Assembly (NCBI RefSeq): GCF_018885265.1
Contig: NZ_CP076538.1
Coordinates: forward strand, 6,918,001-6,982,000
From: Amycolatopsis aidingensis
Lineage (GTDB): Bacteria > Actinomycetota > Actinomycetes > Mycobacteriales > Pseudonocardiaceae
Length of the DNA stretch: 64,000 nucleotides
Direction: 5' to 3'
The translations under genes and the position numbers were made by a program. Shown in pieces: positions 13,538-60,169 of this stretch. Under the pieces are notes generated by a model, which ran no database searches, was not told where the DNA came from, and saw only the letters and a list, made by a program, of their open reading frames with translations. Within the stretch, counting starts at the first letter, position 1. Each line of letters begins with the position of its first letter.

Positions 13538-13572
13538 GGCGCCCCGGAAGTACCGCCGGCCGCACGTCAACA

Positions 13573-13663
13573 GCAAACTCGCCTGCCTGAGCGGCAAACT
13601 CACGCGCGTGGGCAGCAAACGCGCGCGCGTGGGCGGCAAACACGCCGGGTGGGCTGGGGGTCA
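13573..13663. repeat. Four-unit 21-bp repeat array at the end of the DUF3592 gene
   Basis: GCAAAC recurs at 13573, 13594, 13615 and 13636, exactly 21 bp apart, within degenerate units of the form GTGGGCGGCAAACRCGC. The last unit runs on through CGCCGGGTG-GCTGGGGG into the stop codon of the minus-strand gene at 13661. A second array at 60079-60169 has the same period, the same number of units and the same 25-bp offset to a stop codon. Confidence 0.85.
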
Positions 13664-14122
13664 GCGACGGCGGGAGCGTAACCACCACAGCAGCGGGCCC
13701 GCCACCAGCCAGGTGAAGAGGATGGTGGTGCCCAGCGGGAGCAGGGTGAGCACCCAGGTGCGGCCCGCGACCCTGGCCAGTTCCGGGTCGGTCACGTCGT
13801 ACTCGATCCACACCAGGTCGCCCTCGGCGAGGCCGTCGGGGTAGAGCACGCCGTTGGCGGGGCTGTGCGAGACGCCGTCGGGGGTCTCGTAGCGGATGAT
13901 CGTGCGGTCGAAGGAGACCTGTTCCACCCTGGCGTTCGCGGTGCCGAGGTGCGCGGTGATCGCGCGGTCGTTGCGGATGGCCGCGAACACCAGCGCGACG
14001 CACAGCAGGGTGAGCACCACGGCGAGGCCGAGCACCACCCGCGCACCGATCCGCCACGGGTCCCGGCCGGCCCCCGTGCGGGGAACGGCCAGGGCCTGCG
14101 GGGTGTCACTACCTGCCGTCAC
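13661..14122 (-). CDS. DUF3592-type membrane protein
   Basis: 153-residue protein with a hydrophobic helix at about residues 27-48 and a second at about 125-147, separated by a small extracytoplasmic beta-rich domain. The core holds VSFDRTIIRYETPDGV, then LYPDGLAEGDLVWIEYDVTDPELARVAGRTW, the pattern of DUF3592 proteins. A homologue sits beside menD and mgtA in mycobacteria (Rv0556, from memory). Function unknown. The start is GTG. Its stop codon is embedded in the end of the 21-bp repeat array, and its gene is convergent with the inositol-phosphatase gene. Confidence 0.8.
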   Translation of the reverse strand: MTAGSDTPQALAVPRTGAGRDPWRIGARVVLGLAVVLTLLCVALVFAAIRNDRAITAHLGTANARVEQVSFDRTIIRYETPDGVSHSPANGVLYPDGLAEGDLVWIEYDVTDPELARVAGRTWVLTLLPLGTTILFTWLVAGPLLWWLRSRRR

Positions 14123-34530: not shown

Positions 34531-34549
34531 GGTACTCCCCCAGGCAGAG

Positions 34550-34632
34550 GCCCTGAACGGCACGTTGTGGACGTCAGACGTCCCGAACGTGGCGTTCGAG
34601 ACGTTGAACGTCCCGAAAGTGCCGTTCAGGGC
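34550..34632. repeat. 83-bp hairpin element between hemD and hemB
   Basis: Perfect 14-bp terminal inverted repeat, GCCCTGAACGGCAC (34550-34563) and GTGCCGTTCAGGGC (34619-34632), with one further G-C pair outside. Inside are units of about 30 bp, each a GAAC start and a near-palindromic GACGT-NN-GACGTC/GACGTTGAACGTC core. The partner copy is at 46599-46681, of identical length. It starts 13 bases after the hemD stop. Confidence 0.9.
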
Positions 34633-34645
34633 CCTTGGGCGGGCT

Positions 34646-46598: not shown

Positions 46599-46681
46599 GC
46601 CCTGAACGTGGCGATCAGGACGTTCAACGTCGCGAACGGCACTTTTGGGACGTCTGACGTCGCGAAAGCCACGTTCAGGGC
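46599..46681. repeat. 83-bp hairpin element between convergent genes
   Basis: Perfect 14-bp terminal inverted repeat GCCCTGAACGTGGC (46599-46612) and GCCACGTTCAGGGC (46668-46681) around two units of about 30 bp. Same length and plan as 34550-34632. The outer nine stem bases are identical in both copies, but the inner five differ (GTGGC against GGCAC), with matching changes on the other arm. It starts nine bases past the acyltransferase stop. Confidence 0.9.
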
Positions 46682-46690
46682 TTGAGAGGG

Positions 46691-53041: not shown

Positions 53042-54601
53042 CTATCTCGAGACCAGCAACAACGCGGCGGGCGATACCGTGACCACCAGCCCGACCAGCA
53101 GGGCCAGCACGGTGGTCTGCAGGTCCTCGGCCCGGCGCACCTTGCGCACGATCAGCACCAGCCCGACGGTCACCACCAGCGCGGCGACCAGGGCCGCAGC
53201 CGGGAGCCGGGTCCACAGCCAGTTGAAGCCGAGCCAGACCCCGGCACCACCGACCACCCCGAGGGCGAGCTGCCCGGCCAGCGCCAGCCACTGCTTGGCG
53301 GGCGAGTCGTCCTCGTCCTCCTCGGCCTCGGCCAGTTCCTCGGCCTCGGTGAAGCCGTCCTCGTCCGTACCGTCCATCGCGGGTTCGAGCGGCTCGTCAT
53401 CGGCGTAGTCGTACTCGTCCGGGCGCAGGTCGGCCTCACGCAGCGGATCGTCGAGCGGATCGCCGTAGTCGTCCAGCCCTTCCGGCGAGTAGGTGTCCAC
53501 CCCGGAGTCGGCCAGCGGGTCGTCCGTCGGCACGAACCCCTGGGTCGGCGGGCCGCCGTCGAGGTCACCGGCCGGGCCCGCTTCGGCGGGCGCGACGGCA
53601 GGCATGGCCCCGACCTCGGTGTCGTCCAGCTGCGTCTTGCGCCTGCGTTCCCGCCAGCCCGCGAGCCCGGCAGGCGGCTCATCCGGCTCCGGCTCGGCGG
53701 GGGCCGAGCCGTTCTGACCCGGTGCGACGTCGCCGACAACGGGGAACTGCTCGGTATGCGATTCCGGCTCCGGCTGCGGGGCGGCCCGGCGCATCGGCCT
53801 GCGCCCGCGGGCGGGGGCACCGGGCGGAACCGGGTAGCCACCGGTGGCCATCCGGCCCGGCGGCGGGGGCGGGGGCTGTTCCGGAGCCTCCGGCTCGGCC
53901 TCCTCCAGCCCGTCCAGCCGGGCCGAGAGGGAACCTGCGGGCGGGGGCGGTGGCTGCTGGCCCCGCCCCGGGGCCCTGGCAGGCGGCTCCTGCTGTCCAG
54001 CCGGCGGCTGCTGCACCAGGTTCCGGCCACGGTGCGGCAGCGGTGGCCGGGACATGGCACCGGAGTCCTGTTGCGGGGGCCGGGGCATGGCACCGGAATC
54101 CTGCTGCGGCGGGCGCGGCATCGGCCCCGAGTCCTGTTGTGGCGGACGCGGCCGTTGGCCGGTGTCCTGGTGCGGCGGGCGCGGCGGCGCGCCGGGGTCC
54201 TGCTGCGGGGGCCGGGGCATGGCACCCGAATCCTGCTGCGGCGGGCGCGGCGGCGGGCCAGGCTCCTGGCGCGGGGGGCGGGGCAGTGCGCCGGACTCCT
54301 GCTGCGGCGGGCGGCCCGGCTCGGGCTGGGGTGGCGGAGGCGGAGGCGGCGCCGGGGCGCGGCCCTCCGGTTCCGGCTGCCTGCGCGCGTTGCGCCGGGT
54401 GGGCGGGGGCGGACCCTCCGCCTGGATTCTGTCGATGATCGCCTGCGGTGCGGTGTCGCCGATGCCGGGCTGCTCGTCGGCCTCGTCCTCGGCAGCACGA
54501 CGACGGCGGCGGCGTGGCGCGCCGCCGACCTGACCGCCGTGCTGGGCGAGCAGTTCAGCCACGGTCTTCTGTGGCTGCTCGCCTCCGCTTTCTCGCGTCA
54601 T
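53042..54601 (-). CDS. Proline-rich repeat membrane protein
   Basis: 519 residues. A basic/acidic N-terminus (about 1-95) is followed by eight 11-residue units of the type RPPQQDSGAMP (about 97-184), more proline-rich linker, an acidic region (about 330-425), and two C-terminal helices (WLALAGQLALGVVGGAGVWLGFNWLW and AAALVAALVVTVGLVLIV) with a third at the end. The membrane end matches mycobacterial Rv0497; the repeats do not. The ATG at 54601 overlaps the ppx stop (ATGA), and another ATG lies three codons upstream. Confidence 0.82.
   Translation of the reverse strand: MTRESGGEQPQKTVAELLAQHGGQVGGAPRRRRRRAAEDEADEQPGIGDTAPQAIIDRIQAEGPPPPTRRNARRQPEPEGRAPAPPPPPPPQPEPGRPPQQESGALPRPPRQEPGPPPRPPQQDSGAMPRPPQQDPGAPPRPPHQDTGQRPRPPQQDSGPMPRPPQQDSGAMPRPPQQDSGAMSRPPLPHRGRNLVQQPPAGQQEPPARAPGRGQQPPPPPAGSLSARLDGLEEAEPEAPEQPPPPPPGRMATGGYPVPPGAPARGRRPMRRAAPQPEPESHTEQFPVVGDVAPGQNGSAPAEPEPDEPPAGLAGWRERRRKTQLDDTEVGAMPAVAPAEAGPAGDLDGGPPTQGFVPTDDPLADSGVDTYSPEGLDDYGDPLDDPLREADLRPDEYDYADDEPLEPAMDGTDEDGFTEAEELAEAEEDEDDSPAKQWLALAGQLALGVVGGAGVWLGFNWLWTRLPAAALVAALVVTVGLVLIVRKVRRAEDLQTTVLALLVGLVVTVSPAALLLVSR
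54050..54313. repeat. In-frame 33-bp minisatellite, eight units
   Basis: Eight consecutive 33-bp units encode RPP-x-Q-(D/E)-x-G-x-x-(P/S) in the gene at 53042-54601. The units match imperfectly; the strongest pair codes RPPQQDSGAMP twice. Since 33 is a multiple of three, gain or loss of units keeps the frame. Confidence 0.85.
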
Positions 54602-60042: not shown

Positions 60043-60078
60043 CCCCTTTGGCGCACGGGTGAGGCGCTCACCGGAACG

Positions 60079-60169
60079 GCCAACTCGGGTACGTGAATGG
60101 CCAACTCACGTACGTGGCGGGCAAACACGGGTACGTGGGCGGCAAACACGCCGGGTGAGCTGGGGGTCA
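60079..60169. repeat. Four-unit 21-bp repeat array at the end of gpm1
   Basis: GCCAAC at 60079 and 60100 and GCAAAC at 60121 and 60142, each 21 bp apart. The last unit continues CGCCGGGTGAGCTGGGGG into the gpm1 stop at 60167. From GTGGGCGGCAAAC on, it differs from the array at 13573-13663 at a single base. The first two units are degenerate (GCCAAC). Confidence 0.85.

Follow-up and report, generated by a model that had tools for sequence, protein, structure and literature searches.

The locus at 13573-13663 raises the question of why a short array of 21-bp repeats should stand directly behind a stop codon, and whether that stop belongs to the repeat or to the gene that it ends. The initial annotation of the window (the whole stretch of 64,000 nucleotides analysed here) described four GCAAAC motifs exactly 21 bp apart, set 25 bp before the TGA of a minus-strand gene, and an array of the same build at 60079-60169. 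The motifs do start at 13573, 13594, 13615 and 13636 of the plus strand, and the distance was reproduced as well, being 25 bp from the first base of the last core to the TGA at 13661-13663 and 19 nt from the end of that core. The likeness of the second array was borne out for its four units, its period of 21 and the length of its leader, in which 18 of 19 bases are the same, but GCAAAC occurs in only two of its four cores, the remaining two reading GCCAAC.

Read along the minus strand, the first array (13558-13660) begins behind the TGA (13661-13663) of an open frame at 13661-14122, which has no Pfam family, with a leader of 19 nt, CCCCCAGCCCACCCGGCGT (13642-13660), similar to the leaders of other arrays. 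It is followed by four units of 21 bp, namely GTTTGCCGCCCACGCGCGCGC (13621-13641), GTTTGCTGCCCACGCGCGTGA (13600-13620), GTTTGCCGCTCAGGCAGGCGA (13579-13599) and GTTTGCTGTTGACGTGCGGCC (13558-13578), and a convergent plus-strand gene of the inositol monophosphatase family (PF00459, 12704-13537) ends 20 nt from the far end of the array. The second minus-strand array (60064-60166) is organised in the same way: the TGA (60167-60169) of a phosphoglycerate-mutase-like gene (PF00300, 60167-60916) precedes the 19-nt leader CCCCCAGCTCACCCGGCGT (60148-60166) and the units GTTTGCCGCCCACGTACCCGT (60127-60147), GTTTGCCCGCCACGTACGTGA (60106-60126), GTTGGCCATTCACGTACCCGA (60085-60105) and GTTGGCCGTTCCGGTGAGCGC (60064-60084). 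Among named proteins, those that match the mutase-like gene best are from Amycolatopsis, the probable genus of this genome. On the minus strand, the leader of the window arrays reads CCCCCAGCYCACCCGGCGT, and the units start with GTTTGC or GTTGGC. Tandem Repeats Finder (TRF) reports a period of 21 for both arrays, scoring 87 for 4.0 copies at 13573-13654 and 73 for 3.6 copies at 60076-60150. A search of the window against Rfam gave no match at gathering scores, and the lone 12-base core matched the window 12 times with 10.3 matches expected, which is not significant.

The 21-bp repeat family is not due to chance. A two-unit pattern with a pitch of 21 bp and at most one mismatch matches the genome that holds the window (G000) 63+79 times, with no match for the reversed-pattern control and a single one for a similar pattern with a period of 19 bp; a looser three-core pattern gives 81+97 matches, and its control two. 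The arrays were collected from 1.15 Mb of the genome, whose 7.66 Mb form a single contig; this sample is composed of 40 even stretches of 20 kb, 20 of 5 kb around pattern hits, 40 of 5-6 kb picked at pattern or similarity hits, and the window. This sample contains 98 distinct arrays with 353 units, a collection biased toward canonical units by the 60 stretches of this genome that were chosen by pattern hits; the 40 even stretches together with the window hold 19 arrays, 13 of them single. Most arrays have three (42) or four (35) units, others five (12), two (7), six (one) or seven (one), and at least four units were detected in 49 of the 98. The spacing of units is exactly 21 in 247 of 255 cases, and neighbouring units differ on average at 6.4 of 21 sites, yet a spacing other than 21 occurs in only 4 of 251 pairs. 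The conserved core of the unit is CG-N-GTT-K-GC. Between the cores, an alternation of purines and pyrimidines is frequent, which suggested Z-DNA by eye as a possible explanation; the alternation is not common to all sister units. Two layouts can be distinguished: 56 arrays are single, and 42 form the arms of 21 divergent pairs, whose arms run away from a common centre with their first bases 16-19 nt apart.

Among intergenic clusters of the even sample and the window, a lag of 21 is found 18 times and the next commonest lag, 30, six times. In the genome G194, 21 is likewise the commonest intergenic lag (10 clusters against at most one for any other), while in smaller samples lags 30 and 21 are equal, with three each in the sister species G148 and eight each in G018, where four of each eight derive from masked N. 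The lag of 30 bp marks a second intergenic family, of palindromic appearance and with a length of about 70-93 bp around GAACGTGGCGTTC..GACGTC..CCACGTTC, which lies at 34543-34635 and 46604-46689 of the window, at the loci L031, L038, L044 and L057, and at L345 and L346 of G148, with six clusters in the even sample and window and three in G148. Inside long open frames, the window also carries a 33-bp tandem repeat of about 7.7 copies at 54060-54313, for which periods of 66 and 99 bp are alternative readings.

The tie to stop codons proposed from the window holds beyond it, as a same-strand stop lies within 25 nt of 37 of the 56 single arrays (at 4-21 nt in 36, and overlapping the called gene end by 12 in one). 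Random placement into the present gaps, repeated 2000 times, gave 3.0 such arrays on average and never more than 10. The same closeness is seen for 9 of the 13 singles in the even sample and window. With a median of 22 nt for array-free convergent gaps, this null sets a low bar, and at convergent pairs the closeness to stops is partly forced, given such short gaps and a null built on present gap lengths. A cleaner test than random placement is offered by co-directional junctions, where 13 single arrays lie in sense and 3 in antisense orientation (p = 0.02), genes being called throughout with our own codon-usage script rather than a standard caller. Twelve of these 13 sense arrays stand 4-20 nt past the stop, with the next gene always farther away than this stop; eight of the 12 have at least 65 nt free downstream. 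Moreover, after subtraction of the array, co-directional gaps with arrays remain longer (median 94, n=23) than those without (median 41, n=618; p = 0.005). The remainder of convergent gaps is short, like array-free ones. By junction type, the even sample and window have arrays at 7 of 140 convergent junctions, at 8 of 493 co-directional ones and at 1 of 140 divergent ones, and 13 of the 21 divergent pairs of the whole sample lie between genes called convergent. Exceptions exist: 19 of the 56 singles are farther from a same-strand stop or beside an opposite-strand gene, five singles were called in divergent junctions, and 3 of the 98 arrays were flagged inside a called gene. Coding heptad repeats are rejected, as the offsets between array and stop cover all three frames. 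With respect to strand, singles count 12 to 4 within 0-1 Mb, where the genes sampled count 60 to 57, and 0 to 8 within 6-7.7 Mb, where the genes count 72 to 141; this bias, somewhat above that of the genes sampled and possibly linked to replication, is suggestive only.

A closer look at the stops themselves bears on the idea that the repeat captures them. Contrary to the initial annotation, the stop is no fixed part of the repeat but varies across arrays, with 31 TGA, 4 TAA and 1 TAG at the 36 arrays listed, compared with 779, 96 and 190 over 1065 called genes. TGA is not significantly enriched at arrays (p = 0.09), whereas TAG is scarcer (1/36 versus 190/1065, p = 0.015). The proposed insertion or recombination that captures stop codons is further opposed by a linker of 0-3 nt, judged by eye, between the stop and the full leader, and by the mutase-like gene, where relatives devoid of the array have much the same C-terminal residues and likewise end in TGA, TAG or TAA, so that the stop is native at this gene. 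The shortage of TAG before arrays speaks on the other side, as do nine relatives in which arrays of different units occupy the intergenic region of the first window array and, by eye, start at the TGA with zero spacing, this TGA standing in place of the CGA of the unit. Random distances to stops, or absence of the family elsewhere, which the initial annotation named as counter-evidence to its reading, did not come out.

A comparison is provided by the sister species G148, which bears units of the same type and whose mutase-like protein is 96 percent identical to that of G000. For 24 of 46 eligible gene-end anchors, the corresponding end was searched in G148; one anchor without a listed match and one with only a 74 percent match, discarded together with the other secondary matches, were dropped, leaving 22 compared ends, one of which relies on an 80 percent match. 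The array is kept at 20 of these 22 ends, partly in degenerate form, and absent at two. Among the 14 retained singles, the offset is identical in seven and the number of units in three; the other 11 differ, and they do so by whole units. In units 1 and 2 of the 14 singles, 6 of 224 cells differ in the core columns and 77 of 196 in the variable ones; the columns were chosen by us, and the profile by which units were found gives an advantage to intact cores. With identities of 0.80, 0.74 and 0.69 (units 1-3), orthologous units are hardly more alike than units at other loci (0.76, 0.72 and 0.65), while identity between the two species is 0.78-1.0 for the seven leaders that agree in length. The units thus turn over at fixed places. 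At the locus L016 (G000:C1:1997400), and also at L301 in G148, a divergent pair adjoins a putative CRISPR array, with repeats near CCCCCGCTTGCGCGGGGAAGAC.

At the end of the mutase-like gene (gpm), the array occupies the position of a hairpin in relatives. For the 90 nt past the gpm stop, folding energies run from -45 to -68 kcal/mol in 20 of 21 relatives, with z between -3.7 and -11.1, and many of these ends show a palindrome to the eye; the only relative without a strong fold, G021 (z +1.2), has no array either. The array-bearing end of G148 reaches -32.7 kcal/mol (z -0.3) and that of G000 -34.1 kcal/mol, and since the z of the latter, -3.4, comes close to that of the weakest fold among the 20 relatives, the gpm end of G000 may also form a hairpin. 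The gpm ends of G002, G007, G009, G020 and others carry long palindromes, for example TGTCATGA..TCATGACA and CTCGTGAGTG..CACTCACGAG, some common to several species, which are possibly another recurring gene-end family.

Folding of the arrays themselves differs between the two layouts. Compared with shuffles, the 56 singles have a mean fold z of -0.14 in sense and -0.99 in antisense direction, and their units alone of +0.14, while 80 ordinary gene ends give a mean of -1.15 and a median of -0.42; RNA hairpins of single arrays are thus rejected on average. The 21 divergent pairs, on the other hand, fold strongly (mean z -6.5). A left arm is no nearer to its own right arm than to others, as unit cores are 0.83, 0.69 and 0.61 identical within a locus and 0.81, 0.73 and 0.60 across loci. 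Selection for arm pairing therefore finds no support, and the pairing follows from the shared unit.

Outside the two sister species, the arrangement recurs with other sequences. The two-unit pattern is present in one of 60 genomes, namely G000 itself, G148 being outside that set. The consensus pattern occurs in 22 of 390 genomes of the family, its reversed control appearing twice among the matches listed, and exceeds 100 occurrences in five: G000, G148, G188, G194 and G206. Other species bear different 21-bp units, some directly past stops, some as divergent pairs and some farther off; arrays directly past a stop were seen in Saccharomonospora (21 bp), Umezawaea (22 bp) and Sinomonas (21 bp). 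Composition varies among these units. With one unit typed for each, that of G018 is C-rich, while the excess of C over G on the sense strand is -7 in G011, -4 in Sinomonas, -1 in Saccharomonospora, Umezawaea and G194, and near neutral in G016 and G032 (0) and G029 (+1). In G011 (L156, L157 and L160), the 21-bp arrays have the flank behind them in common as well, near GGGACACGTGGTGGGGTTTCGGGCTCGCC, so that the repeated element is longer there; in G194, a second 21-bp intergenic family has another unit near GCGAGTTCCACGTTCCCGC (L333:19809-19890, L339:7355-7419). An origin as a plasmid- or phage-borne element finds no support, as none of 72,556 plasmid and none of 50,697 phage records matched; viral contigs gave three pattern matches.

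Of the roles suggested at the outset, one right after translation, at the end of translation or of transcription, is the best remaining idea. Our preferred reading, put forward tentatively and at somewhat less than even confidence, is that the arrays are conserved elements of transcription-unit ends, which would be bound by a factor and would stop or insulate transcription. The element typically consists of a short leader behind the native stop and two to seven sense units of 21 bp or, elsewhere and often between convergent genes, of two arrays diverging from one centre. The unit core, the exact 21-bp pitch and the place at the gene end are kept, while linker sequence and unit number turn over fast and are as different between orthologous arrays as among the arrays of a single genome. 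For a sequence-specific factor, every second helical turn would offer a site; neighbouring factors would then lie on the same face of the DNA and could cooperate, and the resulting complex would stop or insulate the transcription that leaves the gene, at the position taken by a hairpin in related species. Directly observed are the placement, the pitch, the conservation of the core, the retention in the sister species, the unit turnover and the relatives' folds at one gene. The boundary or termination function and the DNA binding by a putative protein, for which no candidate was found, are what we infer, because such a boundary element best joins core, pitch, sense orientation, address and retention despite the turnover of copy number. 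A directional element fits the divergent pairs poorly, since a transcript meets the antisense array first. A bolder version, which we consider unlikely as it stands, would make the arrays a third mode of ending transcription units, neither hairpin nor Rho, in which a putative factor reads the 21-bp pitch of gene-end arrays; the recognised sequence would then drift from lineage to lineage, whereas the pitch, the address at gene ends and the cooperativity would stay.

Whole-unit changes in copy number, homogenisation, species-specific units and the shortness of convergent gaps after subtraction of the array are all what would be expected of a tolerated satellite, amplified by slippage, by conversion or by an enzyme that requires the core for copying, and surviving without function at gene ends, where it does least harm. 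This neutral reading accounts for the turnover but less well for the near-invariant core, the identical offset at 7 of 14 singles and the retention of the array at 20 of 22 ends even where the unit number differs (11 of 14 single loci), and we regard it as rather improbable. Less probable still is a Rho-type terminator. Rho-dependent terminators are C-rich, G-poor and yield unstructured RNA, and sense RNA of this kind past the stop would load Rho after the ribosomes have left. In the 80 nt past the stop, 40 array ends of G000 indeed exceed 252 control ends in C-G skew (0.136 versus 0.003, p = 1.5e-16) and in YC steps (16.1 versus 13.2), and they fold more weakly (-24.6 versus -31.5); such C-rich, weakly structured RNA is thus found in G000, and the typed unit of G018 is of similar composition. 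However, the composition is not kept in G011, G194, Saccharomonospora, Umezawaea and Sinomonas, sense-strand units being neutral or G-rich in several other lineages, and the divergent pairs present the antisense array first. The arrays also have a strict 21-bp pitch, and Rho is not known to depend on units spaced exactly 21 nt apart.

The folding of the 21 pairs and the strong folds at the same gene end in relatives would, in turn, suit RNA hairpin elements made of inverted arrays, acting as intrinsic terminators or as protectors of mRNA ends, with singles as their halves. The paired arrays and the relatives' orthologous ends do resemble intrinsic or bidirectional hairpin terminators in their strong folds. 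A stable RNA hairpin is, however, a property of the pairs (n=21) and not of the 56 singles, which on average fold no better than shuffles, and the arms lack covariation within a locus, which makes this explanation highly improbable.

With respect to known repeats, the accessible text of PMC8161180 (Subirana and Messeguer) describes mostly noncoding bacterial tandem repeats of 20-21 nt, including those of Actinobacteria, which have a constant length and a species-specific sequence, share a short sequence within a species and were found by a search that required four repeats; their function is called enigmatic. The arrays described here agree with them in constant unit length, noncoding position, species-specific sequence and a short conserved element (CG.GTT.GC). 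A link to stop codons, sense orientation, a leader, divergent pairs and orthologous retention, all seen for the arrays of G000, are not reported in that text as far as it was accessible. Likewise from accessible text, repeats of 52 nt are transcribed in a Bacillus (PMC8625621), and REPs are high-copy palindromes lying mostly less than 20 bp from the 3' ends of flanking convergent or co-directional genes, which form inverted dimers, may supply a TAG stop and are in many cases tied to Y1 transposases (PMC3733652). Close placement at gene 3' ends is common to REP/BIME elements and the arrays, but the latter consist of head-to-tail units at a fixed pitch and not of hairpins, and the palindrome of 20-40 bp per REP unit has no counterpart in their units (z +0.14 over 56 singles). 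In addition, the Y1/RAYT transposase family PF01797 was found in none of six genomes tested and in 5 of 14 control genomes. An REP/RAYT element is rejected on account of the non-palindromic units together with the lack of PF01797 in the six genomes. Gene-end arrays of such kind were not described for this bacterial group among the matches listed, which were mostly titles and abstracts of open-access papers.

Hence, the kind of repeat is known, from bacterial satellites of 20-21 nt and from REP-like placement, and the variant is new. The arrays resemble an unusual marker of gene ends more than random junk. The repeats of 20-21 nt that are called enigmatic in the accessible text of PMC8161180 gain an address here, at gene ends, mostly on the sense strand and next to the stop. 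Moreover, the retention of arrays at orthologous gene ends of a sister species, together with a hairpin counterpart at one gene, makes their role directly testable.
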